Assembly (NCBI GenBank): GCA_015227615.1 | Contig: JAALGZ010000007.1 | Location: 310,001 to 374,000, forward strand | Source: Labyrinthula sp. Ha | Taxonomy: Eukaryota; Sar; Bigyra; Labyrinthulida; Labyrinthulaceae | Length of the DNA stretch: 64,000 nt | Direction of reading: 5' to 3' | In this document: piece by piece, positions 1 through 60,874 of the stretch | Numbering within the stretch: position 1 is the first letter of the stretch | Layout of the letters: each line of letters opens with the position of its first letter | Notes under the pieces: generated by a model | Seen by the model: only the letters and a program-made list of their open reading frames with translations | What the model was told of the DNA's origin: nothing | Database searches by the model: none | Program-made: the position numbers and the translations under genes

Positions 1-1127
1 TACTATATATTCCTTAACAGCGAATCCTTCTGCGATTAGCCACCTCATGCCCGCGCTCAGTTTATTATTTGGCACCCAAATCGCCGCGAGACCCTTTGAC
101 ACTATGGACCCTAATGGTATCTTCAAAATCTGCTCGTCTTTCATTGTTGGAAAATGCAACGTCATCCCCCTAGTTGGGTTATTCGCTACCCCTACATCCC
201 ATGGCAGATCAGCATACACCATATCAAACCCTCTCAGGTTCAACTTCGTCGAGGCGATATCCGTTTCAAACAACAGGCTCTGCGACGGCTGCATCCACAC
301 TTTCATCTCCTCTCCTTCTTTCTCCTTCAAAACATATACATGCTCTTTGTCATCCCTCTTGATAGACCATTCCTTACACGTAACCTGAGCTCCGCTTGCC
401 AAACTCCTACACGTATCCATAACCTCAGGTGTCAACAACTTCCTGATCCTCCCCCGTTCATACGCCCTCTTGTGCCTACGTCCTTTTTGTTCCTCGTAGA
501 TTTTCTTCCATTTCAGATATATATCTTGAAAGACCGAACCTCGGGTATCTTCATTATCATTCTGGGCCATCTTAACTTTCCTTCCTACTATGGCCTTTTC
601 CGGGGTTGCATCCAGTTTTTCCAGCACATCTTTTCCTATAAGAAGATTTGAAAAAGATCCCTCAGTCAATAAAATTCTAGTGTTCGGGGCTTCCACTATT
701 GTACTACTCCCCTGCCTCACTACACGGATCCTAATATCCTTGTAGATTTCTCCTTTCAATGTTACTTCGGATTTAGTCGCAGTCTCCATTCTCACCCTTG
801 TTTTCCGAACATCTGCTGGTTCAATAACTCCGTTATCCAAGAAATATTTATAACTTCCGCACGTCCTTGTTGCCCCACTGTCCATTATGGCGTTAACTTC
901 CTTCCAGGACCCATCGGCTCCTATCCAGTAAGTCGTCCCATCCTCTTCATCAACCTTCTTCTCCCCTTTCTCCGACAACATCTTCATCTGGAACACTAAC
1001 TCTACATAATGCTTCAAATCATATAGTGACCATGTTCTAGAGGAACATTCCTCTGGAGATAGAATATGCAAATCTCTTTCCATCATTGGGCGTTGTCTTT
1101 CTTTTAATTCATCGAAGTTTTCCAGCA
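1..1127 (-). CDS. retropepsin-like plus MT-A70 adenine methyltransferase frame (partial, edge)
   Basis: A frame beginning with ATG near 1,127, just downstream of the integrase, stays open to the window edge (about 375 residues visible). Domain 1 is retropepsin-like: AIMDSGATRTCG at about 860-890, with the later LLIGKDVLEKL block at about 620-655 as in retroviral-type proteases. Domain 2 is MT-A70: FDMVYADLPWDV at about 187-225 (D-x-P-W catalytic motif at 199-210), then FPTMKDEQ, an IPLGSI segment and AAIWVPNN, followed by GMRWLIAEGF. These match the order D-P-P-W, T-M-x-x-E-x-I and W-V-x-N of METTL3/METTL4/AMT-type enzymes, which transfer methyl from S-adenosylmethionine to adenine N6. The C-terminus lies outside the window. 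Confidence 0.85.
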
Positions 1128-1141
1128 TTCTCCTCTCCTTC

Positions 1142-3265
1142 TCATGTTGCGGTAACCTTTTCATAGTATTTATTAAAATTCCGTTCCGCCTGGCTCCAGG
1201 TTTTAAGGCTGTATGATAAATGGATGCTTTGCAGCGGGATTCGCAATCCCCTATATTCTCCGATTGCTTGAGTTCCACACAACTTCTGGGTCATAGATAT
1301 TATTTGTGCCTTAGTTTTCCCAGGAAGCCACGGTTTTCTCATCATTCCTTTCCAGTTTCCCATCCCATAGACTCGGATAAGCTGCGTTAACACAAGTTTT
1401 TCCTTCGATGTCCACCCTTTGTTCGTTGACAGACCTTGCACCATTCCTTGATCCAGCGCGGCGCAACTCCTGGGGTATTCCAATATTAACCACGCATCCG
1501 TTTCATACTCCATAGTAGTTTCTGATATCTCCCGGACTATTCTTTTTTTTACCTGCCGGAACACTACTTTAGCCTTTGACTTTAATCCTGGTGGCAACTT
1601 CTTTGTTTGGAGAAACTGTTCGACCATCTCCGGCTGATCCTCGGATATCTGCTCAAAAGGCTCCGTCGTTGGTTCAAAAGTATCGAAGCCTTTCCAACTC
1701 ACCGTGAAATTCAAACTTCCTTGCACCAGGAACAGAGATAGCAATTCCTTTATTTCAAATGCTCCTTCATTATAAATCCACACTGCTTTAACTATCTCAT
1801 CCATCTGGAAGGTCTTATCCGCGTAGAATGAAATTCTCTGACTATGTACTTCGCGCGTCCGCCCTTTCAGATTACGCACTGTATATAGGTTGTGGCCAAC
1901 AATCGAAACAATCTGGTAAGGTTCTACCCAACTCAGTCGTAGTTTATCCCTTCCCAGGGGTAAACCTTTGAGGGCGATGAGAACCCAGTCTCCTGGCTGG
2001 TATTGGATCTGTTCCAGCGGCAGCCTCTTATTTAACCTGTCCCGCGCCTTCTTTCTCTGACTTTCAAGCTTATCATAAACTCCTTCATCCTTCTTTAATA
2101 AAACTGATGTAAACTTATTCATGGTCCCCAAGGTCCGATCGGAAGGTATCACCAATTTCTGGTTCTCATTTGAAAAGATCGGGTCCAACACCTGCTTCCT
2201 TCGTTCCGTTATTATCTTCCTCCAATCCTCATTTAAATATCTCAAATCCTCACTTCTTCCAGTCATTATCTCATTTGGGGTCATATCTAACTTTGTCCTT
2301 GGGCGGTTGTTCAAGAAACTTTCTGTTAAATCCAAGAGTTTAGTCCACTCATCTCCCGGAACCATATATTGCGACACCAAGGTTTTGAGCACCTTGAGAA
2401 GTGCTCTATTTTGTCTTTCGCTTCCTGAGTTTGACCATGGGCTATATACTATGCTGAAGTTATGGCTTCCCCCATAGTAATCAAGAAACTCCTCTACTAT
2501 TGAATTAGCGAAATGAGAACCCTTGTCAGTCGATAAGATGAAGTTGTCTATTAACCCATTCGCACTGCGCCATTTTATCAATCCTTTCACTACTTCCTCG
2601 GCCCTCGCCTTCTTACACTGCTGGATCAGGCATCTCCTTGATAAATCGTCTGTAATTACCAAGATATCCACTCCTCTTATCTTCATAAAGTCTGCATGTA
2701 ACAGTTGATTTGGATGTTCTCCATGTATGGTGCGCCCATAGGCTCTTCTCATTAACTTGGAAGGGCGCTCGCAGTGGAGGAATACTCTTGCTAGTTCGTG
2801 TATCATATCCTTCCGCTCCTTCACCGTCAGCTCCTCCCAGTAAAATTTCTCGGACATCTTCATCACTTCCTGTTTCGACGCATGCCCAGAGGCTATGTGC
2901 AGTTGCACGATCAACCTTTCGTGAAGCTCAACCGGAATAACAATCTTTCCGTCTACTAAATATAAACCGCCTGGTGACAACGCTACTCCTTGCAACTTGT
3001 TTAGCCTTTCCTGTATTGCCCTGCACATTTCTGCCAACTTATCTTCATTAAGACTCCTTTTTCCCTTTAACCCTTTTGTACACAGGATGCAAATAATTGA
3101 TTCTTGAGTTAACAAATTTCTTATATGTTGGGCTACTTTCCAATCTTGGCGAACCCTCCTTCCCAACCGTTTCCTCCTCCACAACTTCATTAACTTCTTC
3201 TTTCTCATCTTGTTCCTCCAATATCTTCTTGAGCTTATTCTTTGATATCCTAAAAACAAAACCAT
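1142..3265 (-). CDS. retroelement integrase with chromodomain and Myb/SANT-like tail
   Basis: Long open frame (about 700 residues). In order: an N-terminal zinc-binding-type region with the LHIASGHASK block (about 2,870-2,900); the DDE catalytic core with acidic positions in HADFM, STDKGSHF and SGSERQN (about 2,380-2,740); a gypsy GPY-like C-terminal segment; a chromodomain-like block around VSWKGFDTFEP (about 1,600-1,770); and a Myb/SANT-like block with WTSKEKLVLTQL, YGMGNWKGM and LPGKTKAQI (about 1,270-1,430). Chromodomains on integrases are known to direct chromoviruses to chromatin. The additional Myb/SANT-type module is less usual. Confidence 0.9.
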   Translation of the reverse strand: MVLFLGYQRISSRRYWRNKMRKKKLMKLWRRKRLGRRVRQDWKVAQHIRNLLTQESIICILCTKGLKGKRSLNEDKLAEMCRAIQERLNKLQGVALSPGGLYLVDGKIVIPVELHERLIVQLHIASGHASKQEVMKMSEKFYWEELTVKERKDMIHELARVFLHCERPSKLMRRAYGRTIHGEHPNQLLHADFMKIRGVDILVITDDLSRRCLIQQCKKARAEEVVKGLIKWRSANGLIDNFILSTDKGSHFANSIVEEFLDYYGGSHNFSIVYSPWSNSGSERQNRALLKVLKTLVSQYMVPGDEWTKLLDLTESFLNNRPRTKLDMTPNEIMTGRSEDLRYLNEDWRKIITERRKQVLDPIFSNENQKLVIPSDRTLGTMNKFTSVLLKKDEGVYDKLESQRKKARDRLNKRLPLEQIQYQPGDWVLIALKGLPLGRDKLRLSWVEPYQIVSIVGHNLYTVRNLKGRTREVHSQRISFYADKTFQMDEIVKAVWIYNEGAFEIKELLSLFLVQGSLNFTVSWKGFDTFEPTTEPFEQISEDQPEMVEQFLQTKKLPPGLKSKAKVVFRQVKKRIVREISETTMEYETDAWLILEYPRSCAALDQGMVQGLSTNKGWTSKEKLVLTQLIRVYGMGNWKGMMRKPWLPGKTKAQIISMTQKLCGTQAIGEYRGLRIPLQSIHLSYSLKTWSQAERNFNKYYEKVTAT

Positions 3266-3905
3266 TCCATTTCAGCTTAACTCTATCTTCTTGTCGCACA
3301 TTTACTCTTTCCCTTACATATTCCGGTACACCCCATCTAGTAAGGCAGTCAGCGAGTATGTTCTTCTCCCCTTCTAGATGATGGAAAGTGAGCGTGAAAC
3401 CCTGTATTACCATTTTCCATCTTTCTAATCTTCCTAACTCGGCTGACTTGACTAGCTTTCCTGGATCCATTAATCCTAGGATATTTCTATGATCAGTAAA
3501 AACGTGAATGTTCGTCGGATGTGCATAGAAGATATACTGATATCTGGTTAGAGCCTTAAGTATGGGGAAGAGTTCCTTTGAGGTTACCGACCAATTTAAT
3601 CCTGTCACCGTAAACGTGCCCGAAATGAAGAACATGGGGTCAAAGGTAAATACATCTTCTTCCTGGGGACTTCCCACCACACATGCGGCCCAGAAAAGAT
3701 AACTCGCGTCGGTATAAATGGACAATTTCTTCTCGGGAGAGTACATAGTAAGGTTCCTTTCCATAGCTTGACATATATATTTCTTGAACTCCTCAAACTT
3801 AACTTGACCCTTTTCTTTCCAAAATCCATTCAAGCTGATTCTTTTCCTTCTCTTCTTGTTCCATCTATATTTATGGGGAACCAAGATATTAATCGCCTTA
3901 TTCAT
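3048..3905 (-). CDS. retroelement RNase H region
   Basis: Follows the reverse transcriptase on the minus strand. It contains the connection segment and a Ty3/gypsy-type RNase H: a SIYTDASYLFWAA block at about 3,680-3,730, an acidic KELFPILKAL block, a FTDHRNILGL block, and the HHLEGEKNILADCLTR block at about 3,340-3,400. These are the standard RNase H_T7-like landmarks of gypsy Pol proteins. A lysine/glutamate-rich tail leads towards the integrase. Confidence 0.88.
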   Translation of the reverse strand: MNKAINILVPHKYRWNKKRRKRISLNGFWKEKGQVKFEEFKKYICQAMERNLTMYSPEKKLSIYTDASYLFWAACVVGSPQEEDVFTFDPMFFISGTFTVTGLNWSVTSKELFPILKALTRYQYIFYAHPTNIHVFTDHRNILGLMDPGKLVKSAELGRLERWKMVIQGFTLTFHHLEGEKNILADCLTRWGVPEYVRERVNVRQEDRVKLKWNGFVFRISKNKLKKILEEQDEKEEVNEVVEEETVGKEGSPRLESSPTYKKFVNSRINYLHPVYKRVKGKKES

Positions 3906-4082: not shown

Positions 4083-4976
4083 TCATGTGGGACTTGTAGT
4101 CAACAACACACATTTGTTTATATTGAGACGTAAATTCTTCTTCTTCGCATTTGTTAGAAACTGCTGAATAGTATCCGCAAGCTCCTTCATGGTGGTCGCG
4201 TAAACTAAGGAATCATCCAACCACTGGACTACGCCTTCTCCTTTGGAACGTCCAAATAGGGACTTTCCTCCTTCCAGGGCCAGAACTTCCGATATTATTC
4301 TATCACTGTAAACCCCCGGAGTTGAGTGATACCCCATTGGTGAGCATTTCAACCTATAACTACCGAAGATGGTACTTATACCAAAGTACTTCGAAGCTTT
4401 CTCCGAGACTTTCAACATATCAAAACCACTAATGGCATCAAAGCACGCGAAATATCGATTCTCCGATCCAATCCAGGCCATTTGGGTCTCCCAATGGGGT
4501 AACCCGAAGCTATTCCTAATAGTGTTGTCATTCAATCTCGTTAAGTCTATTACCATTCTGAACTTCGCTTTCGTGGCTTTGGGAACAACAAGTACTGGGG
4601 AGCTAAAGTAAGGGTTGGGATCCCTTTCGATAGCTCCTATTTTTTCTAAATCTAATAATTTTCCTTCCAAAAAATCCTTTTTTTCTCCAACTACAACATG
4701 AGCCTTCGCAGCAAATGGGCGAGCTCCCGGCTTAAGTTCCACTTCCATCTGGGTCAAATCCGATAGTTGACATTCACTCTGACTTACCGCAAATGCATCC
4801 CAGTTGTCCATATATACCTTCCACAATAGTCCGATATCCTCATTCGGCGCTGGTGTCTTCGAGGCTATTATAGTGAACCTTTCATCTATAATACTCCGAA
4901 TTAATTGCTCCTCCCCCACGCCCGCATCCCGATCCATGGCAGTATTTTCTCCAAATCCTTGCTCCTTTATTCGCAC
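4083..4976 (-). CDS. retroelement reverse transcriptase domain
   Basis: Gypsy-type reverse transcriptase. Visible blocks include the finger motif with KFRMVIDLTRLND, the palm block with FDAISGFDMLKV, the CSPMGYHSTPGVY block, and the catalytic QWLDDSLVYA block, with WLDD in the place of the usual YxDD core. A WLDD core also occurs in gypsy elements of some protists, as I recall. The domain sits between the gag linker and RNase H, in normal gypsy order. Confidence 0.92.
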   Translation of the reverse strand: MRIKEQGFGENTAMDRDAGVGEEQLIRSIIDERFTIIASKTPAPNEDIGLLWKVYMDNWDAFAVSQSECQLSDLTQMEVELKPGARPFAAKAHVVVGEKKDFLEGKLLDLEKIGAIERDPNPYFSSPVLVVPKATKAKFRMVIDLTRLNDNTIRNSFGLPHWETQMAWIGSENRYFACFDAISGFDMLKVSEKASKYFGISTIFGSYRLKCSPMGYHSTPGVYSDRIISEVLALEGGKSLFGRSKGEGVVQWLDDSLVYATTMKELADTIQQFLTNAKKKNLRLNINKCVLLTTSPT

Positions 4977-5298: not shown

Positions 5299-6546
5299 CT
5301 ACGACTGCAATTCTCCCCGGGAACTTTCTTTTTGGGATAAATCCTCCACTCGACTCACTGATGAGTTATGCTTCTTCAATACTTTGCAGTCGTTGATTCT
5401 GTGTCCTTCTGTGAAGCAAAACAAACATAAATATTTCTGCTTCACATATTCCTTCTTCCTTTCCTTACTCCAAGAATCGGGTAATCTTTGTCTTTGGCCT
5501 TCAGGAGTCTGTTCCATACGCACCCTCTGCTCGACCCCACCAGGGCGTTGCGGATGTCTTCGTGGTTGTTTATAACGCACATTTTCTGTTCGTGGTTCCC
5601 GCTTGACTGGCCCCATAGTATTGTGCGCCATCCTGAGAGCCGGGTCATCAAAATCCTGGGGGGGGGCTAGCAGCCTTGCCAAATCAGATAAGTCCTTCCT
5701 CATAACATAGTAGCTAGTCAATCTTCGTCGTTTAATCGTATGCTTAGGGTTGGGGCCTTTAAAGGCTTTTGCAAGCCGTTTCAGCACTTCCAAACACAAG
5801 AGTTTATCTAAATACGGGTCCTCAGCTAGTTCGATTCCCAGAAGGAGTTTATCAATTTGCTGCAAATAACTTGACATGGATACACTTATATTTCCTTCAT
5901 TGGTCCATTTCACTTTTCGCGACACATCCGTTAGTATGCTCGCCTTCTTGCTCTCGATCCCCTGACTTCTTATCTTTTCCAGATGATGCATCACTGCTGC
6001 TCCAGAGGACGTATCTACCTTCGACATGTGCAACTCCAGTAGAAGTTTTTCCGATAAATAGTTCATTATGGTTGCCTCTGTTAACCCTAGCCCTTCCTGC
6101 ACTACGGCTTTCTCCCATCTACTAAACAGCAGTTGGAACTTATATATCTCATCCGCTTGAAGTCCTTTTAACATTGGTTTGCCCGATATCTGGGTTTCCT
6201 TTAAACGGGCCTTCCCGACATCCAACTCGCTTTCCTTTCTACCGTCTCCTTTTTGGGTTTCTCTTCTTTGTGATCCACCCAACGAGTATTCGCTAGGATC
6301 CGTTGAATTATCGTCATTCTGTTTATCCAGTCCATCTGTAACTTCTTCCTCATCAGTCCCAATAACTTCCTTATTTTTATGCTGTTTTTCTGTTCTTTTT
6401 TTATTTTTATTTTGCTTTTCTAATATTTCGTTCCTTAACTGTGTCACCGCTTCGTGTACTATATCCGTTATTCCAGGTTTAAGGGCCTCCACTAACTGAA
6501 GTATTAATTCCGATGTGACCAAACTGGTGGTTGGTATACTAGCCAT
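5299..6546 (-). CDS. retroelement gag-like protein with zinc knuckle
   Basis: About 415 residues beginning at an ATG. The N-terminal third is charged and low in complexity. The middle is helical and capsid-like. Close to the C-terminus (about 5,360-5,420) lies one CCHC zinc knuckle of the C-x2-C-x4-H-x4-C type, the nucleic-acid-binding signature of retroelement Gag. It is the first coding part of the minus-strand LTR element and is followed by an acidic linker leading to the reverse transcriptase. No aspartic protease motif is seen between gag and the reverse transcriptase, which is the usual gypsy position. Confidence 0.85.
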   Translation of the reverse strand: MASIPTTSLVTSELILQLVEALKPGITDIVHEAVTQLRNEILEKQNKNKKRTEKQHKNKEVIGTDEEEVTDGLDKQNDDNSTDPSEYSLGGSQRRETQKGDGRKESELDVGKARLKETQISGKPMLKGLQADEIYKFQLLFSRWEKAVVQEGLGLTEATIMNYLSEKLLLELHMSKVDTSSGAAVMHHLEKIRSQGIESKKASILTDVSRKVKWTNEGNISVSMSSYLQQIDKLLLGIELAEDPYLDKLLCLEVLKRLAKAFKGPNPKHTIKRRRLTSYYVMRKDLSDLARLLAPPQDFDDPALRMAHNTMGPVKREPRTENVRYKQPRRHPQRPGGVEQRVRMEQTPEGQRQRLPDSWSKERKKEYVKQKYLCLFCFTEGHRINDCKVLKKHNSSVSRVEDLSQKESSRGELQS

Positions 6547-6800
6547 TGGGCCATAAGCATCCTCAACCTCTTTTTCCGTTTCTATTTCCTGTTCACTCCC
6601 CCACGAAGTTCGCGTCTGAGCGTTCCGATTCTTGTCCTGTGGATCCCGTTCCTACTTGTTCATTCTCTCCGACTCGACCAACATGGACTGCAGTTCCCTT
6701 TTCTTGGTCGGTTTCGCCCACCTCTGGGGGCGTCTCTCCTTGTAAACGTTTACTTTTGCGCATTCTCAGTAATATTCTTAAGAATTGAATTCAATTTTAA

Positions 6801-9800
6801 CCTTGTGCTCACTAAGAATGAAAAAACTTATTCGACTTGTTCTTTATCCCTTGTTCCTTTTTTATATCCTAATTCTTCTCTATATATATCCCATTCCCGT
6901 ATTTTTTGTCTCTCCCCCCGCTGTGTCTTATCTTCACTCTCCTACCTATACTGTTCCTTTCCGAACCTTTACTACTATCGTCCTTGTTTCGTTTGTATAC
7001 CGAGAAAGGTCAACTCTTAGGCTTCGGTTTGTATGTTCTAGGAAAGCTGCTCGTTATTCTTTCAGGTTCCTGGATAACACATGCAAAAGCTTTTTTCCCT
7101 AGTCAAAACACAAAAAAGAGAATTCAATGATTCTGTGTTAAGATGCAGTCTAAAAGCTCTTCAAAACGTAGTATACCTCTATTCAAATTATTACGAACCA
7201 AAGTTTGTAAATCAGCATGGATCGGAAAAAAAGTCATTTCAGTCGCAGTTGAGTAATTGCTTGAAATGAGGCGTCCTTATTTTTAAATCCACACTATTTT
7301 TTGTGAAAAAAGCTCAGATTTGGGTCTTTTGTCTACTCGGGATAGACTATCGAACAGTCAGATAAGAAAAAGCGAGGCAAGGATAGTAACAAGAGCGCTA
7401 GGTTTATGAATCAAGCTAGTTGAAGCTTCTCGTGGATGTTTATGCGTTATTCCAAAGTCGGAATTCGTAGGAGATATGAGAAAAATAAAAAAAAAGATTC
7501 TCGGTTACTTCAAGAAGTCGTACAACGAACCTAAATAACAAGTTCTAAGTCTTTACTTGCATCGAGCCTTTGTTATCATTATTATTTAGCTCTCAGTTAG
7601 CCTTCGCTCTCTTGTGATAATCTGTATTTGGATTTTATTCTTTTTGGATTGACATATCTTATTTTCCGATAATGCTAAAAAACTAATTGATACTGTTATA
7701 ATAATCGATAATTGAAAACTGAAAATCGATGAATCTATACAAGACTAATTAAGATACACAGGCTATTACCCTCCAAAATAACTTGTTGTTTGAACAGGTA
7801 GCATTTGCCTTTCAGTTTTCTTAAATAAAACGAGAAACATTCAACTAGAATTTTTTTTGAATGATTCCAGGATGACTGATACTATGATAGTTGACAACCC
7901 TAGGCGTTCTCTGTAGGTGTGCAGTTTACCATTCATTGATGCGTGATTAGATTCTATAGGAGCAATTAACGATAGACTTTTCCTGCAAATTAAAACTAAC
8001 TTTCAAATGTGATTATGCACATACCAATTTAAACACGGTGATTTATTGTTCGCTTTGATACCTACACATATATTTCCTGGATTTGAATTATCTTTAATTT
8101 TTCCTCTATAATTAAGCTGTATGGGTACAGGAGTTTAACAGCTCACATAGAATTAACAAAAGCTAAGTGAATAAAGAAGCCAAGATTTACGGCAATTCAA
8201 ACGAAATGAAGGTTTGATTCCTTTTATAATGTAGAAACTGAGCACATTTAGAGTTCCATCTTGTTTGTATATGCTTTTTAAAATCACTTAGTTCTCTAGA
8301 GATATCGTATGTATAGATTTTAAGCTCGTAGTTTAGTGAATGTGCGTTTTGCCTGTAGACTTATAGCTCTTTTAGTGGATCTAACACTTGAATAAGGTCC
8401 AAAGTATTTAACTTAGCCTAATATAACTTCCGATGCGCTGTATCGCTCTATGGATAGTTTTCCATTTCAGAATCAACTACTTTGTCGTTACGACATTTAC
8501 GTAAGGTAACTTGGCTAACTTGATCAAGATTTCTTATTTCGTTTCCTACTGTGGTCGTTGCGATAACTTAAGATTTAATTATCCAAAATTCTGAAATATA
8601 AACATACACAACCAAAAAGCCACTATATACTCTACCTATAGGCTAACTACTTACCCACTCTAAGTTTTAATTCAAACATGATCTTAAGGGTAGTTCTACA
8701 AGGGGTAATTGGTGTGCTTATCTCATATGCAATCAATTTGGAAGTTAAGCGAGAAGTCAAAATACATTTCAGGAAAAGTTAACGTTATACATAGCTTCCT
8801 TATCAGCTGTTAGGGGTAATCTACACGGGACTTGTCTTCACCAATGACCTAAAATGGAATTCCTGGACCATTTTTGGATACTTATATGATTTTGAACATG
8901 AATTGTGCAAATAAAAACTTTCTAAACAATTAGGCAACCTTTGCCACAATCAGGTGAAACAAAAACAGAATATTTTCAACAGGTCAAGCAAAAAAAACAC
9001 CGCATGGAGGGCATCAAAATCGTCAATTTTTCTTTTGCGACCCATCAAATGGGCTTTATTCTTTAGGTGTATGGTGTTCATGAGTACAATAGCATTTTGT
9101 CCCTTTGAATTTAAGAAAAGTAGAGTAGCTGCTATATGGGTGACTTTTGGTTTATCTATATAGGTAACTTACACACTTGTATCCAATTGTAACTGTAACT
9201 ATAACAGCAGACTAGATAATCTTAAAAAAAATTCTAAGGTCTTAGGAGCCTTTGGGTAATTCAAACAGTCTGAGTGGGTTTGATTACCATGTGCAGTAAA
9301 ATGTGAGGAATTCCTTAATGAAATCTGAGTGAAGAATGCACTGAGTTTTATTAAGTGAAAAATCTGGAACACATTGAGAGGTCAAGTTAGTAACTCTTAG
9401 TTTAATTTTCAAATCCTTTTGAAGAGCTTTTGAAATAGTTTTACGGACATTTAAAAAAGCCGCACTGAAAACCTTAAGTTTATTACTGAATTTTAATGTT
9501 TTTCAAGCTTTCTAAAATCTTCAATGAAGTTTCTTCCATAGTGTGTTAATCTAAGCTAAGTTTTAAGCTGGGAGTATGATACTACGAATATTAAATCATC
9601 TGCATTTAGTATAAGAACCTTGATAGTTCTCTCTCTCTCAATTAAGACTTCTCGCTTTCTGAATCTGCAGTTGCTATAGCCAGTTAGATTTTCTAGAAAA
9701 CTAAAATTCTAAGGTCTCTGATTCTAAAAGAAAGACGAAAGGGAGAAAAAACCTAGGTGAAGATAAGTGAATTGAAAAAGCCCCTTCAACTTAGCCCTAG

Positions 9801-12930: not shown

Positions 12931-14672
12931 TCACCTTTCAGAAATATCACTTGTTCTGAAAGGACTATATATGGGGTAGTTCATTTGCTCAAGCCACCCA
13001 AGGGCAAAGAGCGCATCCATCAACACGTTTTGAAAATGGTTCCAGTTGACCTGAACTGATGATTCTCTCCTTACACTGCGCTTTTTAAAACCTGTATACT
13101 TCTTATAGTTCTCTCCCGCATGTTCTGCATATGGAATATCGTCATCAGCTATAAAATATTGCATATAGATTAATTTAAGACTTTCTGAGATTAGCACGAA
13201 TCTACTATCCTGCCAGTTTTTAGGGCATATTTCTATTACCACACTTCCAGGTTTCATGAACATGATATTTGTCAAGTCAGCTCCGTGGATAGAGATAAAG
13301 AGTTGGGATTCAGCAGCAATTTGTACTTGCTTCGCAAAACTCATTTTGGACTGAAAGCCTGTAGCAACTTCTACGTCCCCACTGACATGTTCTTTTACTA
13401 GTTTTGAAATTAGCGCTTCGGTTTCTTCAAAGTTTGTAATCTTTCTTTTACTAGTTCGATGAGCAAAGAATATTTTTTTTGGAAGCTGCCCTGGGGGTAT
13501 ATAAGAAATATGGTTGAAAACTGACTGCTGCAGAAATCTTCCTTCTTCAACATCCTGAAAAAGATGGAAAATATAACCAGGAACAAATGCGTTTTCATAA
13601 CATTTTCGTTCTGCTCTCATTTCCCGAGTCTTAATATTTTTCATTCCTGGAATAGACTTTAATAGTTCAGTTTGCCATTCAAACATATTATTACCATGAT
13701 CTAAAAGATGTATCGTCTCGGGCCATTTCAAACCTCTACAATAATACTCAAGGTAAAGAATTTACTCTTTTCCTATATCAACTCTTGACATAGCATGAAA
13801 TATAGGAGTTACATGCTCAGAAAAGTGAGTAACATGTCTTACGTAGGAATGAGTAACAAGCCAAGTAGGCTCAGACACTACATTACCAACTCTCTTGTTC
13901 GATTGCCAGTAACTATCAAGTTCTTTATTTGATGAAAATAGCATAGACTTAACTTTTCGCTTTGAAATCAAACTAGGTGGGAAATCATAATATTCTTTTG
14001 TAATTTCCTTGTCTCTTGCAAAAGGGTACTCCTTTTCCAAGCGAGTATCTTCTTCAGAAGCAAGAACCGAAAAAGATCTGTCTTGAATGCATAGTTTACT
14101 GAAGTAACAAATGGTATCTCCAGATAGCTTCCCTGCATCTTTTCCTAACCTGTATCTCATGTGTGCTGCTGAAGAACTAAAACATTTGATAGAAGAAGAA
14201 TGGGGCATGTCAAAATCAATAACCGGTGTGCTTGCTCGATTGATGGCATACGTCATAGCCTCATCTATGTAATCAACTCGAACAGATCTTCTTACTTCCT
14301 GGGTTAGCAATCGGTATAGATTTATTGTTTCCTCCAAGATATTTAATTTCCCTTCATTTACAGGACTACTTTTGAACCAAGAGCTCTCTGGTGAAACAGA
14401 GTTGGTATATACTTGAGGAGCACTTTCTTTTTCACCATTCAAAGGATTATTCTTACCGCCAAGCCCTAGTCGTTTCTTTTTTTCTTCGTTTTCATCTTCT
14501 GTTTCTTTAACTTGAACGCTGGTTTCTTGTTCCAGAAGTTGTTTCTCAAGTTCTTTTATTGTTTCTAAGTAATGAAAAGTTAAAATGATTTACCTGACTG
14601 AAAGAATAATAAAGTTTGAAATCCAAGGAAGAATATAACCAAGATAATTCCCCCAATTGTATAATATTTCAT
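12931..14672 (-). CDS. GT61-family glycosyltransferase, type II membrane protein
   Basis: Three exons on the minus strand: 14,672-14,594, 14,564-13,766 and 13,735-12,931; product 560 aa. The introns are 29 nt (14,565-14,593) and 30 nt (13,736-13,765). It starts at the only ATG, MKYYTIGGIILVIFFLGF, a short cytosolic tail plus signal anchor typical of Golgi glycosyltransferases, followed by a Glu/Gln/Lys-rich stem. The last exon carries the GT61 (DUF563) core: AAESQLFISIHGADLTN, MFMKPGSVVIEICP, and an upstream PPGQLPKKIFFAHRTSKRK block. The family includes plant xylosyltransferases and animal EOGT, transferring sugars to proteins or polysaccharides in Golgi or ER. Donor and acceptor cannot be told from sequence. 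Convergent with the F-box gene; the membrane-protein gene lies 213 bp upstream on the same strand. Confidence 0.9.
13736..13765 (-). other. 30-nt spliceosomal intron
   Basis: Minus strand, GTAAAT...TTGTAG. Joins ...VDIGKE to GLKWPETIHLLDHG in one frame within the glycosyltransferase. Confidence 0.87.
14565..14593 (-). other. 29-nt spliceosomal intron
   Basis: Minus strand, GTAAAT...ACTTAG. Joins the signal-anchor exon (...LLFFQS) to the stem exon (ETIKELEKQLLEQE) of the glycosyltransferase. Confidence 0.87.
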
Positions 14673-27296: not shown

Positions 27297-28107
27297 ATGA
27301 AGGTTGCTGTAGTAGGTGCAATTTTTCTCATTTTAAGACCTAGAAACTCCAACAGCTGTTGCAAGCAAAAAATTTGATGTTTACGTATCAAAATTGGAAT
27401 CATGTAGTGTCTCGTTTTCTTTCATTGCCCAGGTTTAAGCTTCAAGGAAAACACTGTTAGTGTTCTAGAAATAAAGAAGAGTATATCAGAATCTACAAAT
27501 TGGAATGAGCTGTTGAAGGTATTAACGAGCGATGGGACTGTAATATATGATGTAGATATTTCCCGTTCTTTATTTTAAGTCTATTGCTGAAGAAGCCAAG
27601 AACAAGTTGATTCTTGCTGGACTTTTTCAGGACCAAGTAGACACGAATAAATTTGTTAGGTCAAAACCAACTGCTCCTCAGAAACTGAATTTTGGCAAAA
27701 AAAAGGCCACTTGGAATGTTCTGATAAATGATGATGACGATCCTTTTCAGAATGAGTTGATGAGCGAAGATGATTTGTTAAATGATGACCTTGAAGAGAA
27801 AATTCAAGCTCCAAAAGAGACTGTTGTTGTTAAAAAGAGAGCTTGTAAGAATTGTTCCTGTGGATTAAAAGAACAACTAGAGGAGGCTGAGCAGAAATTA
27901 AATCAAGGCGAGGAAGCTATTTTGAAACCGAAGAAAGGTGCCGCAAACGAAGGTTGTGGTGGATGTGCGAAAGGAGATGCATTCCGATGTGGAAGTTGCC
28001 CTTATCTAGGACTTCCTAAATTTGAGCCTGGAACTAAACCTGAGATAAAGCTTAAACCAGATGGCACCAAGATTCTTGTTGATACTGCTGATGATCCAGT
28101 ATTCTAA
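27297..28107 (+). CDS. CIAPIN1: anamorsin / Dre2, cytosolic Fe-S cluster assembly protein
   Basis: Proposed exons 27,297-27,315, 27,338-27,403, 27,433-27,551 and 27,580-28,107 (243 aa). The C-terminal exon has the family signature RACKNCSCGLKEQLEEAE, then CGGCAKGDAFRCGSCPYLGL and a PKFEPGTK tail, as in human CIAPIN1 and yeast Dre2. Dre2 with Tah18/NDOR1 passes electrons to the cytosolic Fe-S assembly machinery. The N-terminal half resembles the methyltransferase-like domain (LLKVLTSDGTVIY for LLKPGGTV). Motif A usually has four cysteines (C-x~9-C-x2-C-x-C); only the last three are present, with no cysteine in the preceding ~40 residues. Motif B has both C-x2-C pairs. The first intron is uncertain: a 22-nt GTG form gives MKVAVVDLETPT, while a 29-nt GTA form (27,309-27,337) would need a further upstream exon, possibly starting at 27,196. 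Confidence 0.9.
27404..27432 (+). other. 29-nt spliceosomal intron
   Basis: GTAGTG...TTGCCCAG inside the anamorsin gene. It joins ...VSKLESC to LSFKENTVSVLEIKK in frame. Confidence 0.8.
27552..27579 (+). other. 28-nt spliceosomal intron
   Basis: GTAGAT...TTTTAAG inside the anamorsin gene. It removes an in-frame TAA and joins SDGTVIYD to SIAEEAKNKLILAGLF, as expected for the Rossmann-like domain. Confidence 0.83.
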
Positions 28108-29805: not shown

Positions 29806-32451
29806 GAATTAGAACTGTCTACCAAGAGACATCGGCAAGTTAATGGAACATTGAACAGTTCACAAATTATACTTAGTTTTAATTAAAATAAATATTTGAG
29901 CTCTTTGTTTTGTATCACCATGTATTTATCCCAAGTAATATAACGAAGAACATTCATTATCATGAAGATTCGAAACTAACCAAAAGCTGTTAATAGAGAA
30001 CAACATTCTCATAATTCGGACTTGAATGTTATACTAGCCTTATCCTTCATTGAATGACTATTTTTCGGCTTGCACTTAAGCTTACTTTTTTAAAAAGGGC
30101 ACAAAGAAGTAAAGTTTTCTTCTACTCATTTACTTGTTGATAAGCAATGTTTTGAAATAGATCGAAACCGTTTATGCTTGAAATATATCAAACGATAGCC
30201 TATACTGCTTGAATTTTCCTTCCGCACATAGTTTCATCATGCAAAACGTGGAAATTATACTGGCTGTTGCATGGAAACACTCAGTTCTCCTAAATAGGAA
30301 CTTTAACATTATATTAATTGGGAAAAATATGGCTTAGCTCAGGTCTATAACCTTTAGATTAAGACTTAAGTATCTACAATGGTTATTCTGTCGCGAAGTA
30401 AGTTACTTTTTCCCACTGCACTCAGGTTAGTAATTTTCAAGAAGCAAGTGATTGATTATTCTCTTGGTACTGCCTATTTTTTTGGGTAAGCTTAATTTGC
30501 AAGAAAGAACTTTGAAACTCCTGATGCTTTGGGCAAATCCGTTTCTTTTCTAGTCATTATTTACTTTTTTTATTTTGTGGAACTATGTTATGAGCAAGAA
30601 TTAGAAGATAAAATCCTCTCAAAATAACATGCAATATATTTGTTCTAACATTCCTGAAATCTGGCTCTGTGTTGAAGTTATATAGCTGATTAGTATTCCG
30701 ACGTATCTAAGAAAACATGAGCGAAAATGTCTTTCAAGGTAACTGGAACTAGGGCTAGATTTGTAAAAAAAACTTTTCCCGTTAGCCTAAGAATTGAGGT
30801 TTTGATGTTGTTGGTCAAGAATATTTTAGCCTATTAACTGGAAGCTAACTTCGCAACTTTTCAGAAGTAGACAGCGATGGATGTGCTAATTGTTAATTGG
30901 CCTAATTTTAAAAACTACCTGGTACAAATAAGTTAGGAAACTAGTTTTCGTTCAAGATTAGCCTTTATTTTTCCCCCTAAGCAATGATTTGTATAAAGGT
31001 AATGGTTGAGTGGCCAAAGACATGTTCTACAATAGAACCCAAATTTGCTCTTCAAGAATAAGAACGAACTTCCTCGTCTAGAGATAAGCTTTTATGTTGA
31101 GTTTTATCTAGTTTAAGCAAATCAAGTGAACTGGAGGGATGATGCTGAATGACTAGACTCTTTCAATTATGCTGATATTAGGAATTGGAAACTCTGATAG
31201 TGTAGAGTAGGCTGTCCTATAGCCTCAGGTACGTGGATTTAACAATGTGCTCGTACGAGCTAATTACCGAAGCTATAGTAAGTTGGCATTAGCAACTGGA
31301 GCAAGCGTACTTCCTGTCGCAGGCATGATGGTTCATTGAATATTGGTATATGACTTTGTTAACTTTGTATACCATAGTTTTAGGTGTGTGATGACTGAAA
31401 AGAGATTTGAAGATAGCCTTGAAGAGCAAGATTAACGTCAAGCCCTTGAGGAACTTGTCACACGGGATCGGATTTGATTTATTGATAGCTTACCACAAAC
31501 CTTTTACCTACCTTTTTTTCATTGACGTTCACTAATAATTATATCTCTCTTTTGATTTATTATAAATGATCTCTCCTTGTCAATAATAATATCAGAATTA
31601 CTCGATTTGAAGCAAGCTTTCAAATTTGTTGTTCAAAATCAGAAGCAAACTAGAATTCTCTTAATAAAAGGTAATTTTTATACATATGCCCGCCCGGGGA
31701 AAATTGAAAAACTTCCTGCCGCTTTGCTTTAACGATGTGAACCTTCTCACTTAGCGCTAGAAATCACATGCAACCACAAGTTAACAAAAGGTCTTTTTTA
31801 TATAGTCGGAGAAGAGAAATAACTTTAGCCTGGTATATAAGTTAAAGAGAAATTATTCAAAAAAAGCATTAATTTTGCTGTCTCTTAGTCTTTATTTACT
31901 GAATTAACCCTGCTTCCAGGTTCTTTGCCGTGTACTAAACCATAAGAGTTTCAGAAAATGTGGTTCTACTCTTAAACATGATGACGCTTCAAAATGTACT
32001 TTGAAATCAACCTCATTTTTCCGATTAAAAAAAGTATAGTAAGCGATGTACATTGTTGTATAAGATATCACCTCATGAACAAGTTTTTTTTTAATTTGTT
32101 GGTCTAAGAGTAGCTTTTTTATTCGAGGGTGCTCATTTCTGACAAACCGAAAGGAATAGATTAATTAAAATTAGAAGTGTTGCAGCCTAATTTGGCAGGA
32201 ACCATTTTATTCTTTATCTAATCATTGAGTAGTTGTTTCCTGAAGTATTGCTAAGGTGTTATTATAGTTTCATTGTAATCTTTTGTTTGAATTCTATTTT
32301 TTCATCTTATATGCCCAAAATGGGTCAGTATTAAATCAAAAGTTGCCTATTTTGGACATCATGTGAAATACTGATTCTCCAAATCGGGCAAAGAAGATCA
32401 ACACGGGAGAATTCTTACACACAAATCAAATTAGGAATAAAGAAACCCAAG
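29806..32451. other. 2.6-kb gene-free AT-rich interval
   Basis: Upstream of the ROCO gene. No coding frame, RNA gene or repeat that I can support. Confidence 0.5.
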
Positions 32452-35400
32452 ATGAACATGGATCCGTTAACTACAAGAAGATATGATCGATTTATGAATA
32501 AGTTAAAAGAAGGAAGCAACTATGGGTTCCTCTCTTTATATTTCTACACGGTTTCTGAAGCTGAAGAAATTGCAGAGGAAATGAAAAGTAATTCTACACT
32601 AAAATACCTTTCTATGCCAAGTTGTTATGCTGGAAGTAGAAAAATTTTGCCTATCATTAATGCCATGAAAGAAAATCCTAGGCTTAGGATTAGTTATTTG
32701 GATTTGAGTGATAACCGCTTGGAAGACAACGGATGTTATGTTGTTTGTAACTTTTTGAAATTTAGTACAACTGTTGAAGTTGCGATTTTGAAAGCGAATA
32801 GAATTACATCTCAAGCTGCATCTTATATCAAAGGTGTATTAGTGAAGAGTAAAACTTTAAAATGGCTCGACATCGGGAACAACCAGCTTGGACCAGAAGG
32901 TGTGAAAATATTGGATCAAGCTTTTGATCCTAAGGGAGGCAAACCGTTACCAATTCTCGAGCTCCTTGATATTTCAGATAATAAGTTGGGCTCTGAGGGA
33001 GTTAAAAATTTGACGAATATTTTCAGTAATAGTAAAACTATGAAGAACTTAAATATGCAATATAACAATATCGGATCAGAAGGAGCAGATACGATTTCAC
33101 ACTTGATTTCTACCCTTCCAGAATATTCTCTATTAGAAAGGATTACTTTATTAGATAAATACACAAGAATTTTAGTATTAAGAGGCTTACTTGAAAAATC
33201 TCTTAATGAGGAGGAATATAAATCAGCCTACTCTAAGGTATTGTTTGAGGCAGACAAGTTTGACAAAAAGATGAGTATACTAAAGAGTGAATGGGAAAAA
33301 GCTAAGGAGAATGGGGATGAGTTGGTTAAAATTCCACAGGAAGTATTTGAATACCAAGATGCTGACAGTATTAGAGCTTTTGTGAAACAAGCGATCAGCG
33401 AAGGATTGTCCTCTAATAAAGCGGTGAAGATGTTAATGGTTGGCAGGGCAAGAGCAGGGAAAACAAGTTTAACCAATGCGCTTGTTGGAACAAGAGATGG
33501 CCCTGTTGATGGCGAAGAAATTACAGCGCTAACAAAAGATGATGATAATCGTGCAACTGTTTCTGTGGAGATAAGACCTTGGGTTGTAGATGATGTTCGT
33601 GTTTCAGTTTGGGATTTTGCAGGTCAAGAAGAGTATTGTTTTTGTTATCATTACGCTTTAGGTACTATATGACACATACTTTTTTCCTAAGTAGAAGGTG
33701 CGTGGTTGTCCTGATTTTGGATCTCTCTAGGTATAAAGACTTTTCGGAGGATGTCTACTATTGGGTAAAAGCAATTCAGGCCCACATTCCAGGTGTTTCT
33801 TTTTTCCTTGTGGGAACACATATTGACGAAATGACAGCAGAAGAAGTAAAAGAAAAACAAAGTGAGATATTACTGAAGTTTGAACAGGAAGAGCAACGAG
33901 TAGTAGCTGCATTGGACAAACAACTGGAACTTCTCCAAGAAACCAATGATGAGCAGGACTTTGAAGAAAACAAAATGGAAAGAATTAAGACGAAAAATGA
34001 AGACATCAATCGAGATTTAGATGACAAGGCAACTGGTGAAGGGGCAGATTCCCTTCAAGTTGCGCGGGAGAACGCAAACATTGTGGTTGAAGATACTGCT
34101 CAAATGAAGCAAATTCGAGAACAGAGAGATAATAGGCCTAAAATACTACACAACAAGATGTATGTGGTGAGTTCTAAAGATCTCAAGGGTGTTACTGATC
34201 TAAGAAAAGTTTTAATCAAGCACGCAACCGCCGAAGAAGTTGCTATTAGGTTGCCAAACACGTATGTTCGTTTACTAGAGAGCCTTAAAGAGTTTGCAGA
34301 TGCTAACCCAGCCTCACCAATCTTGTTGAAAGAAAAGCTAGAAAGCATTGTACCCCAGGACTTGTTAACAAAGTTTGATACAAAGGAAGAAATTGAATCA
34401 GCTCTTGATTTGTTACACATCGTTGGTCAAATTTTATGGTATAAGCACAATGAAAAACTGGTTGATAGAATATTCACTTCGCCCAGGTGGGTTGTAGATG
34501 TTACTAAAGCTCTGATTCGACATGATATGTTTTTGACAGAGCATGGAAATCCAGGAATAATTCCTAGCTTGGAGTGTCCAAACGGAATGAAATCAAAAGA
34601 GTTTGAGCTTTTAAGAAAGAATTTTCAGGAACAAGCAGTTTTGGACTCAAGGCTACTTCCTTTACTTGAAACTTGGAATAAACTTTCCGTGGAAAACCAG
34701 CATAAACTAGCTGAACTACTTCAGCAGTTTGATCTTTTGATTCAACTTCCCAGGGTAAAGAACCAGATTAGTTTAAAATGTCTCATCCCATTGTATCTAA
34801 ATCCTAAGTTCAAGGAATTGATGAAGGGAAATCCCGATCATGAGAAGGCTGTGGTTAAGCTAAAGCCTATGGGAAAACAAAGAGTATCATGGAGATATGA
34901 CTTAACTGAATATTTTCCAGAGGGACTTTTTCTTAGAGCTCTTGTTCGTTGCTTTTCGTTTGGAGAAGTCGAAACAATAAGTGACAAAGTACTATTGATG
35001 CGTGTAGGAAACTCTAGAATCCGGTTAATGGAAGATAGATCCAGTGGTTTTATGACCTTAACTGGAAGCTATGAGCCAGAAGAAGGAAAAAAGAAAGTAA
35101 AGGTGTTTTCTTCTGTGGTGGAGGCTCTTAAACAAGTCTGGCCAGCTTTAGTTTTGTTTGCTACTGAAATCGAAGCTCTGCTTAGAACTGCCTACAAGGG
35201 TTTGAACTATCAAGTTGTATGTGTTGCTTCTGATTCTAGGCTAAGAGAACGGGCGCTTTGTGCCAATGAAACTCATCCTGATATGGTACCTAGTCGAGAA
35301 TATATGCATGTCATTTGGGGCACCTTAAGTGCTACACAGCTAGCTATCCTTTTAAGGTTGGAAAATTTGTTGAAAAAAGAACCAGGAAAAAAACAAGTGA

Positions 35401-35864
35401 AAATGGGATGGCAGTTGATGGACAAACTTCTCAATAATCTTCGAGAAGAGCAAAACTTGGCTTTATATGGTAAAGGGACCATTGCTCACATCGAGTCGCT
35501 TCTCTCCAAGGCGACTGAAGGTTCGGAGGAATACAAAGCCCTTTTAGAGTTAAAAGATGTTGCTCAAGATAAAAAGGATAAGACCATTAAACTGGATAAT
35601 ACAGAGCTTCTGACACTACTGTTAGATATCTGCAAAAGACTCCTGCCTGACTTGAACAAAGCAGATGAAGAACGTCGTAAACGTGAGCTGAAACAAGCCA
35701 ACCGTATGATTGAAGTTGAACCTACACAAGAACAAAAGAAAGATAAGAATGTAATGCGCTTGCAGTTGGAAAAGCTTGCTGTTGAACAGAATAAGTTCAT
35801 TAAACCAAAACATGAAGGTATTGGGGAAAATGAAGATGTCAAAGAATTAGAACTTGACTTGTAG
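32452..35864 (+). CDS. LRR-Roc-COR (ROCO) family GTPase
   Basis: Two exons, 32,452-33,632 and 33,662-35,864, around a 29-nt intron; product 1,127 aa. Residues ~25-215 form RNI-type leucine-rich repeats (YLDLSDNRLEDNG, WLDIGNNQLGPEG, LLDISDNKLGSEG, NLNMQYNNIGSEG). A Roc GTPase follows: P-loop GRARAGKTSL (about 331-340), switch/G3 WDFAGQEEYY (about 387; the intron splits this motif), hydrophobic VVVLILDLSRYKDF, and G4 GTHIDEM (about 444). A long charged, probably coiled-coil segment interrupts Roc (about 455-545) before MYVVSSKDLKG (G5 region). The COR domain follows (for example ILWYKHNEKLVDRIF, then SPRWVVDV), and the tail is Lys/Glu-rich. ROCO proteins such as LRRK2 and Dictyostelium GbpC/Pats1 are dimerisation-regulated GTPases; no kinase domain is present here. 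Role in this organism unknown. Confidence 0.92.
33633..33661 (+). other. 29-nt spliceosomal intron in the Roc domain
   Basis: GTATTG...CTTTAG. Splicing produces the invariant-type WDFAGQEEYYMTHTFF of Roc GTPases; unspliced RNA hits a TGA a few codons on. Confidence 0.92.
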
Positions 35865-36736: not shown

Positions 36737-37654
36737 TTAAAGAAGCACTACGAAAGCAGTTAATCCACCAATAATTACATTTATTGGCCAGAAATACTTC
36801 CACCTATTCAAAGCAACAAAAGAGAAAAGAGCGCTTCCAGCACATGAAACCCAAATTGAGTCAAGAGCTAGAACAGCTAGACGTACTTGTTTTAACCTTC
36901 TAAAAATCTTCTTCAATTTCTCATTAAGCTCATTTCCAATTTCTAATGTTTTTGCGTCCTTAATCATCAACTCTACCAAGTAATAAGCTGCAAAGAGAAA
37001 ATAAATTCCACGAATAGAAAAGATTCCAAATGAACTTCTAAGAACTAGGAGAGAAGTGCGTTGATTTTCAATGAATATAACACTGAACATTAAAGTAAAA
37101 CTAATCAAGTCCAGAAAGGAGACAATATATTTAACTGCTACGAACCTTCGTAAAATAACTTTAGTTCTTTGAGAAAATAAAATCATTTTTCTTTGAAAAT
37201 AGATGTACTTATATAGAAAAATTATCGTGGCAATACAGGCGAGGTGAAGGTTTGTAGCAAAGATAAAGGTAATGAGCACATCCTCACCATAGTTTGTATT
37301 TTCAATATCCTTAACTTTAAGACCTGCACCAATGATATTAACCAATAAACACGACAACAAAGGAAGAAGTCTTATAAACTGTCGAAGTCTGCGAATAAAA
37401 GCAGCATGTACTACGAAAATTATAGAATAAGAGATTAAGATAAACCAATAAAGTCCTGTGAGAATGCTAAAATTTGCATCGCAAGGAAGGGTCTGTAACA
37501 AAGTTTCATTGAAATCCTGTGGTTTTTCTTTTAAGAACAACGAAAATTCTGTTGATTGCGCCCAGCCTGTATCACAGCTACACTGATCCTCAACGCATTT
37601 ACCGAAAGCTCCACAACCTCCTTCAAATCCAAATTCTTCACCAATGCATCTCAT
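36737..37654 (-). CDS. EGF-like, seven-pass membrane protein, copy 1
   Basis: 305 aa from the ATG at 37,654. The cysteine-rich N-terminus (MRCIGEEFGFEGGCGAFGKC, then VEDQCSCDTGW) resembles an EGF-like module; NETLLQTLPC supplies a glycosylation site. About seven hydrophobic segments follow, starting near residue 65 with LTGLYWFILISYSIIFVVHA and ending with NVIIGGLTAFVVLL. A receptor-like 7TM topology is plausible, but no known GPCR family is recognised and there is no cleavable signal peptide. Homologous along its length to the gene at 47,670-48,731. The frame closes with TAA right after the last membrane segment, yet the same frame continues for 48 codons to 36,590 (YQGVKLRKKKSS..., ...APQLNKYESELG) and matches the cytosolic tail of the paralogue. 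The gene is therefore tail-truncated, read through, or becoming a pseudogene. Confidence 0.75.
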   Translation of the reverse strand: MRCIGEEFGFEGGCGAFGKCVEDQCSCDTGWAQSTEFSLFLKEKPQDFNETLLQTLPCDANFSILTGLYWFILISYSIIFVVHAAFIRRLRQFIRLLPLLSCLLVNIIGAGLKVKDIENTNYGEDVLITFIFATNLHLACIATIIFLYKYIYFQRKMILFSQRTKVILRRFVAVKYIVSFLDLISFTLMFSVIFIENQRTSLLVLRSSFGIFSIRGIYFLFAAYYLVELMIKDAKTLEIGNELNEKLKKIFRRLKQVRLAVLALDSIWVSCAGSALFSFVALNRWKYFWPINVIIGGLTAFVVLL

Positions 37655-47669: not shown

Positions 47670-48731
47670 CTAAAAGTCTATTACCAGGATACCTTGTTCT
47701 GATTCGTTGTTCATCAGTTGTGGAGCTGAACGAAATTCCTTATACCTACCTGATACTATTTTACTTGAAGTTTCACTACTTTTTTTCTGCTTCCTCTTCC
47801 TTCCTTTTTGATACTTATACACAACTGCTATTGACACAATCTGTCCAATAGTATTATTTAATGGCATCAAGTATTTCCATAGAGTTAAAACTACAGTTGA
47901 AAACAAGGCACTAGCATAACATGAACCCCAATATACACAAAAAACTAGAATTACTACACGTACCTCTTTCAAAACCTTATGATGACTTTTTACCTTAGCG
48001 TCCAATATATTATTCTCATCTAGAATATTTGCATCTCTAATCATGAATTCAACCAGAAGAAAACAGGCCATTGCTGCGTAAACTGTGCGCAATAATTGAA
48101 TGGAGAAAGCTATTCGGATTTTTAGCAAGCGAGTATTTTTCTCAGTTTCAAATGGTAGAGAACATAATAATACTAAACCAACAACATCTAAGATTGTAAT
48201 AAAATATTGAAAATAAGTAAATACACATAAGATGCACCTTGTTTTTGAGGAAAAGCTTATCATTTTTTGTTGAAAATATATATACTTGTTTAAAAATATA
48301 CAACTTGAAATATTTGCTAAAAATAAACCAAGAGAGAAAAATAATGTAAAGCAAAAATCTTCTCCAAAGTTTATATTTTCCACGTCATTTAACTTATACG
48401 TAACTCCTACGATGTATGATATTAAACATAAAAGCCAAGGCAAAAGTCTCTTCAGTTGACGAATTTTTCGAATGAAGGCTACATGAACTAAAAAATTTAT
48501 CACCACAGATATTTCGTATATTAAGTATAAAGTAGATATGATTCCAAAGTGCGCATCACACGGAAGTTTTTCAAGTAGGGTTTCATTAGAACCAAGAGAA
48601 TCTTCTTCTAACATAAAGGAAAACTCAGTAGATTGCTCCCAATCAAACCTACATTCACAATAACTTTCAATACATTCACCAAATACTCCACATGAATTTT
48701 TATAACCAAATTCTTCTCCGACACAAGTCAT
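47670..48731 (-). CDS. EGF-like, seven-pass membrane protein, copy 2
   Basis: 353 aa, ATG at 48,731, single exon. N-terminal cysteine-rich module MTCVGEEFGYKNSCGVFGEC, then IESYCECRFDW, and NETLLEKLPC. About seven hydrophobic segments follow (YLIYEISVVINFLVHVAF, PWLLCLISYIVGV, FFSLGLFLANISSCIFLN and others). A basic cytosolic tail, KYQKGRKRKQKKSSETSS, ends in LVIDF. Alignable with the 36,737-37,654 gene over the whole length, including the motifs GEEFG, QSTEFS, NETLL..LPCDA.F, AFIR..RQ, KYIYFQ.KMI.FS, SALFS...L..WKY. A tandem-type duplication on the same strand about 10 kb apart. Probably a surface receptor or sensor; ligand and signalling partner unknown. The intact tail shows that copy 1 is the altered one. 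Confidence 0.8.
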   Translation of the reverse strand: MTCVGEEFGYKNSCGVFGECIESYCECRFDWEQSTEFSFMLEEDSLGSNETLLEKLPCDAHFGIISTLYLIYEISVVINFLVHVAFIRKIRQLKRLLPWLLCLISYIVGVTYKLNDVENINFGEDFCFTLFFSLGLFLANISSCIFLNKYIYFQQKMISFSSKTRCILCVFTYFQYFITILDVVGLVLLCSLPFETEKNTRLLKIRIAFSIQLLRTVYAAMACFLLVEFMIRDANILDENNILDAKVKSHHKVLKEVRVVILVFCVYWGSCYASALFSTVVLTLWKYLMPLNNTIGQIVSIAVVYKYQKGRKRKQKKSSETSSKIVSGRYKEFRSAPQLMNNESEQGILVIDF

Positions 48732-60821: not shown

Positions 60822-60874
60822 AACGGTTTCTTTGTTTCCAAATTTTCCGTTTCTCAAAAACTTTGCTCATTTTA

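Follow-up and report, generated by a model that had tools for sequence, protein, structure and literature searches.

The genome of Labyrinthula sp. Ha hosts a widespread lineage of Ty3/gypsy-like LTR retroelements whose coding region ends in two domains akin to parts of a eukaryotic writer of DNA N6-methyladenine (6mA). Judged from sequence, the Myb-like segment between integrase (IN) and the MT-A70 methyltransferase (MT) domain is homologous to the DNA-binding subunit p1 of Tetrahymena MTA1c, and the MT-A70 domain of the elements is nearest to MTA1/AMT1, ahead of METTL3. Tetrahymena MTA1 (AMT1) is the catalytic subunit of that complex and acts as a 6mA enzyme on double-stranded DNA. With a captured enzyme of the eukaryotic 6mA type and the DNA-binding partner of its complex, these would be naturally occurring transposable elements that have the equipment for writing an activating DNA mark.

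The element and its lineage in the genome

The window is the whole 64-kb stretch of DNA that was analyzed; C121 denotes the numbering of its contig, and the left flank (C121:303001-312000) was read as locus L009. The window's left edge splits a 7.67-kb LTR retroelement, C121:309407-317080, on the minus strand. Its two 287-bp LTRs, found by blastn, are 96.5% identical: the 5' LTR lies at window positions 6795-7080 and its 3' partner beyond the window, at C121:309407-309693 (L009:6407-6693).

The region between these LTRs, read on the minus strand throughout, contains a gag-like frame of 415 aa (window 5299-6546) with a zinc knuckle close to its end (zf-CCHC_2, E 0.0011, under the curated cut-off), a reverse transcriptase (RT) frame (4083-4976; RVT_1, E 1.1e-10; found in the genome search as C121:314053-314673), an RNase H frame (3048-3905; RT_RNaseH, E 1.9e-16), and an integrase frame of 707 aa (1142-3265; rve, E 1.2e-10, above the cut-off) whose rve core lies at about 2438-2719 (C121:312438-312719 in the genome search). 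The integrase frame also contains a chromodomain-like segment (about 1607-1714; Chromo, E 0.02, under the cut-off) and ends in the p1-like Myb domain (about 1220-1423; p1 chain 7f4l_E, E 1.4e-12). Behind the integrase follow a retropepsin-like segment recognized by its DSGA motif and weak in this copy (about 628-903; Asp_protease_2, E 0.19, under the cut-off), and the first part of the AMT1-like MT-A70 domain (1-366), which has DLPW at the catalytic motif and continues leftward to C121:309725. The frame that bears the MT-A70 domain starts at window position 1278, overlaps the end of the integrase frame by 137 bp, and exits through the left edge. The copy shows partial decay, with gag, RT, RNase H, and IN in separate frames and an internal TGA in RT.

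A preliminary description, made from the window's sequence, had proposed an MT-A70 domain captured by an LTR retroelement, on the strength of FDMVYADLPWDV, FPTMKDEQ, and AAIWVPNN in one frame. All three are present in that order on the minus strand. A Pfam scan inside the window returned no MT-A70 match because the domain is split by the window edge; once the left flank was joined, the 602-aa frame (L009:6485-8290) matched PF05063 with E 2.5e-25 and 89.8 bits (cut-off 23.9) over model positions 1-172 of 172. This full-length coverage indicates that the domain is complete, and the leftward extension then runs into the 3' LTR at C121:309407-309693. Two genome searches placed the MT-A70 match of this copy at C121:309725-310228 and C121:309743-310366. 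The proposed capture therefore holds for this element, whose paired LTRs enclose the domain; it also holds in the six long frames that we scanned elsewhere in the genome (L010, L012, L013, L014, L015, and L016; 1,797-2,652 aa), each of which joins RT, RNase H, integrase, and MT-A70. The DSGA segment and the p1-like Myb domain, in or beside the described interval, had been passed over.

We searched the whole genome (50.8 Mb, 153 contigs) for the separate domains. Three MT-A70 searches, in which the best 150 of 354, 457, and 432 candidates were scored, together yielded at least 296 distinct MT-A70 loci, a total that takes in host genes and fragments. In the first of them (best 150 of 354 candidates), all 150 scored loci exceeded the PF05063 cut-off. 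Further searches scored the best 150 of 498 candidates for RT, of 310 for p1, of 549 for rve, and of 389 for MT-A70.

The preliminary description had also raised the question of whether other copies of the element lack MT-A70. Among 147 distinct RT loci related to that of L012 (the best of 498 candidates), 129 have an MT-A70 domain among the matches listed, 3.3-5.2 kb downstream on the same strand. When RT positions were moved by 20-60 kb in 200 control runs, the mean number of linked loci was 3.9 and the maximum 9; an opposite-strand control gave 0. Similarly, 138 p1-like Myb loci out of the 150 that were scored (best 150 of 310) have an MT-A70 domain among the matches listed, 0.5-1.5 kb downstream. 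Across rve integrases of all kinds, 71 of 150 (best of 549) have a listed MT 1-5 kb downstream, the others lacking one or having an unlisted one, so that MT-A70 seems to belong to one lineage rather than to every LTR element here.

We then read 28 loci (L009-L036). Most came from the head of the match list, so the sample favors well-kept domains. In 27 of them (L009 being joined with the window) the domains follow the order RT, RNase H, IN, chromodomain, Myb, MT; only L022 departs from it, being an AMT1-like gene that stands alone. A pair of LTRs encloses everything from RT to MT in 20 loci and in the window element; in L013, L019, and L027 the pairs are truncated by contig ends, and none was found within the stretches read as L014, L016, and L036. 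The two LTRs of an element are 100% identical in L015 and in L034 and 99.8% identical in L011, suggesting recent movement. Between the paired LTRs RT is followed by RNase H and then integrase, the order of Ty3/gypsy elements, and the RT matches MLV-type RT (1.1e-15) and Ty3 RT (6.4e-14) among PDB chains. The chromodomain exceeds the Pfam cut-off of 25.1 bits in L013 (29), L015 (29.8), and L016 (25.2), with L012 (24.6), L010 (19.5), and the window copy (15.2) falling short of it; no chromodomain was among the Pfam matches listed for L014. Matches of 4-6 bp that could be target-site duplications occur in 18 of 20 elements at a tolerance of ±6 bp, a count that we take as suggestive; candidates lie exactly at the LTR ends in L010, L029, and L035.

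Some loci look compound. L018 (C117:97000-106900) is nested or tandem, with a second integrase before and a second chromodomain-Myb-protease run after a complete element, and its long repeats are 85-92% identical. C132:835172-846747 and C62:559684-570783 each hold two RT-Myb-MT loci, about 7 kb apart, whose scores are the same or nearly so; these look like tandem copies, perhaps with LTRs common to both.

In most loci the protease is not between gag and RT, its place in Ty3/gypsy elements. By tblastn, 23 of the 28 loci (L010-L012, L014, L017-L021, and L023-L036) have a protease behind the integrase, where it separates the p1-like part from MT, the position of the DSGA segment in the window copy; the same search of L009 found none. 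L013 has a protease ahead of RT, L015 has a trace in the form of a DTGA motif in an upstream frame only, and no protease was found in L016. A profile that mixes both placements (before RT and after integrase) matched retroviral-like aspartic protease 1 (8.8e-5), DDI1-like protease (0.012), and FIV protease (0.069). The predicted structure of the Myb-protease-MT part (mean pLDDT 54.9) is confident in the MT core and not in most of the remainder, so the identity of the protease rests on this profile search.

Affinities and conservation of the terminal domains

Searches against PDB chains ranked MTA1 first for the MT domain of L010 (7.6e-39, followed by METTL3 at 1.7e-31 and METTL14 at about 1e-9) and for that of the window copy (5e-26 versus 1.7e-20 for METTL3). 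A P-x-R-G stretch past the catalytic motif is invariant in 16 aligned rows comprising eight elements, the host gene, and seven AMT1-like proteins from other eukaryotes; it also occurs in Tetrahymena MTA1 and is absent from the letters of METTL3. Fold comparison, which starts from the weak model described above, placed METTL3 (2.4e-18, about 184 columns) slightly above MTA1 (1.7e-17, 258-260 columns). In the same predicted structure a long helix ahead of MT recalls the helical arm of MTA1.

In a tree of MT domains with a single METTL3 row as outgroup, the elements form long branches beside the AMT1 rows, and L013 falls next to those rows. No element clade was recovered, and a single clade was not rejected (AU p 0.141). 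Apart from three long rows (L013, L014, and L009) and some unresolved forks, few in number, the MT tree of 15 elements agrees with their RT-RNase H-IN tree, as would fit an old capture and shared descent since then.

The Myb-like domain of L010 matched p1 chains with E values from 7e-13 to 9.5e-13, the next match being at 0.44, and that of the window copy matched p1 at 1.4e-12, the best of 13 matches, with SNAPc4 next at 4.4e-4. In the genome search the window domain was 38% identical to Tetrahymena p1 (E 6.4e-12), and even in the divergent family of L015 the domain matched p1 only (1e-4). A profile built from eight sequences of the Myb domain and the linker behind it matched p1 with E 1.7e-25, and the match, which spans residues 22-173, extends far beyond the Myb fold; its next matches were SNAPc4 (3.6e-6) and c-Myb (4e-5).

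The genome also contains relatives of these domains outside the elements. The protein of L022, identical to EukProt P0003, has its best named matches in Mucochytrium quahogii and Hondaea fermentalgiana (65% identity to each across 64% of its length), and this one gene suggests a labyrinthulomycete host. When Tetrahymena p1 served as the query, the best-scoring loci were C1:1284458 and C100:136111, each without an MT among the matches listed; they are probably genes of the host's 6mA complex. Because it has its own AMT1-like gene in addition to these two p1-like loci, the host likely has a 6mA pathway of its own. Labyrinthulomycetes include Aurantiochytrium limacinum. That species is reported among those with 6mA peaks (PMC12695648).

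Protein searches with regions of the long polyproteins returned EukProt proteins only (2 of 2194 and 5 of 320 candidates), two of which, P0001 and P0123, are 100% identical to this genome across the region searched. Short-word and pattern scans of viral contigs and genome contigs found no relatives of the element; since such searches match short words or patterns, they support its absence elsewhere weakly.

The catalytic motif varies within the lineage. The 27 element MT domains that we read, many of them near-copies of each other, have DPPW (12), DPAW (14), or DLPW (1, the window copy), and all 27 keep the D and the W. DPPW is present in all seven EukProt copies, a set that overlaps with the 27 (P0001 is L012 and P0123 is L015). 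It is doubtful that enzymes with DPAW or DLPW are catalytically active. Point values of dN/dS come from three close pairs among 11, eight having been excluded because synonymous change was saturated in nearly all domains. They are 0.052 for MT and 0.043 for RT in L012-L034, 0.173 and 0.129 in L029-L035, and 0.224 and 0.056 in L010-L017; the first two pairs are DPPW families and the third is a DPAW family. In a look for a signature of self-methylation in base composition, the observed/expected ratio of ApT was 0.92-0.96 in six of seven elements and 0.84 in L015, compared to 0.85 in one host stretch of the window, with a different coding share, and it was 0.73-1.08 in five LTRs.

Possible roles of the p1-like and MT-A70 domains

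We regard it as somewhat probable that the p1-type and AMT1-type parts of the polyprotein jointly methylate adenines in double-stranded DNA, likeliest the element's own, and so favor its expression. The end of the polyprotein would supply two parts of a 6mA writer, a p1-type DNA-binding domain and an MT-A70 catalytic domain of AMT1/MTA1 type, which would work together whether cleaved apart or kept as one polyprotein. Because both are made in the same polyprotein as the integrase, their most likely target would be the element's own cDNA or a freshly integrated copy. The mark would help expression of the new copy over its silencing, since 6mA is reported to mark transcriptionally permissive chromatin in AMT1-bearing protists, where AMT1 occurs with p1/p2 and 6mA accompanies active transcription (PMC12695648). 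We infer both the self-marking of element DNA and the escape from silencing. A fuller version, in which the lineage took over the AMT1 and p1 writer parts and writes a transcription-permissive mark on its own new copies, is one that we hold tentatively, as plausible rather than probable.

We identified neither p2 nor AMT7 in the element. SAM binding by MTA1 reportedly requires p2 (PMC9174199), and the Rhizopus complex is described as consisting of Mta1, Mta9, and P1 (PMC13297926). Other 6mA partners (p2, AMT6/7) may be borrowed from the host.

If true, this reading would reverse genome defense by methylation, a parasite licensing itself with its host's 'active' mark, and at least 296 MT-A70 loci (host genes included) in 50.8 Mb could also reshape the host's 6mA landscape. 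It makes testable, by comparing young DPPW and DPAW copies, whether 6mA causes permissive chromatin or merely follows it.

Chromoviral integrases carry targeting modules at the position of the chromodomain, and the main rival explanation gives the p1-AMT1 pair a role of this kind beside the chromodomain: as a reader or tether it would bring the pre-integration complex to 6mA-marked, nucleosome-free promoter DNA, with methylation secondary or absent. We consider this unlikely. Both domains follow the chromodomain, p1 is reported to be a DNA-binding protein (PMC9174199, PMC12695648), and a targeting role would suit the DPAW family too, which retains the domain despite its altered catalytic motif (MT dN/dS of 0.224 in L010-L017). 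However, a tether would need no intact motif, whereas 12 of the 27 copies read and all seven of the overlapping EukProt copies retain DPPW, and the protease that one sub-lineage has between p1 and MT would fit release of MT from the integrase.

The preliminary description had left open whether the element marks its DNA with 6mA or its RNA with m6A. The evidence leans to DNA: MTA1 is the nearest solved relative by sequence, and p1 and MT-A70 in combination argue for the DNA 6mA pathway rather than for RNA, although the fold comparison ranks METTL3 slightly first. A domain that puts m6A on the element's RNA, steering its translation, packaging, or sensing by the host, seems to us quite improbable. 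METTL3 comes second by sequence and first by fold, but sequence searches with L010 and with the window copy both score MTA1 higher, and the partner in the polyprotein is p1, a subunit of a DNA complex. Both p1 and p2 are reported to occur exclusively together with AMT1 (PMC12695648).

The likely host pathway, with the AMT1-like gene L022 and two p1-like loci without a listed MT, makes interference conceivable as well: element domains would enter the host MTA1c as altered subunits and disturb host 6mA, so protecting the element. DPAW and DLPW variants could be poor catalysts, but the DPPW families also combine low MT dN/dS (0.052 and 0.173) with a full motif, for which a poison subunit would have no need; we hold this explanation to be very improbable. 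The notion of a host methyltransferase gene that happens to lie beside a retroelement, or of an assembly artefact, drew on nothing beyond the cut at the window edge and is ruled out by the enclosing LTR pairs, the single frames of 1,797-2,652 aa, and the linkage at 129 of 147 RT loci, leaving it next to no likelihood.

Known systems and other features of the window

Among the closest known systems is the ciliate DNA 6mA methyltransferase complex MTA1c (AMT1-AMT7-p1-p2), which the elements resemble in an MT-A70 domain nearest to MTA1 by sequence and in a p1 homologue that matches residues 22-173. In the elements, unlike in MTA1c, both parts lie in one polyprotein with RT and integrase, and the catalytic motif varies among DPPW, DPAW, and DLPW. 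Since it naturally joins p1 and AMT1 parts in compact form, the element may be useful for structural work.

In their LTRs, RT, RNase H, rve integrase, and chromodomain, and in the order of these parts, the elements are like Ty3/gypsy chromoviruses; they differ in their extra terminal p1-like and MT-A70 domains and, in one sub-lineage, in a protease behind the integrase. Among retroelements that bear adenine methyltransferases, DIRS elements use a tyrosine recombinase, whereas the elements described here have an rve integrase and direct LTRs; and Dam-like enzymes form a group separate from the MT-A70 enzymes found here. PMC5890265 mentions DIRS retrotransposons with Dam-like adenine methyltransferases and describes retrotransposons of dinoflagellates and charophytes that have captured C5 cytosine methyltransferases; the preliminary description had also named elements with these two kinds of enzyme. 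Those with cytosine methyltransferases are likewise selfish retroelements with a host-type DNA methyltransferase, but theirs is a C5-cytosine DNMT, whereas here an MT-A70 enzyme is accompanied by the DNA-binding partner of a 6mA complex. MT-A70 does not occur in the main text of PMC5890265. In full-text searches of a literature collection that excludes preprints and most subscription papers, we recognized no report of an MT-A70-bearing LTR element, with or without p1.

The remainder of the window contains other recognizable features. A LINE-like element occupies 57577-60866 on the minus strand, with an endonuclease (Exo_endo_phos_2, 3.7e-7) and a reverse transcriptase (RVT_1, 4.9e-35) in adjacent frames. 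On the plus strand, a Roco-type gene with leucine-rich repeats, a Roc GTPase, and COR-A extends over two overlapping frames (32335-35861). Two similar putative multi-pass membrane proteins, both with a cysteine-rich start, are encoded on the minus strand about 10 kb apart (36740-37672 and 47673-48731); compared by eye from their translations, they are likely a duplicated family. Ordinary host genes are represented by the end of CIAPIN1/anamorsin (27556-28104, plus strand), a glycosyltransferase 61 (12934-13761, minus strand), and an Apg6 BARA domain (63281-64000, minus strand).
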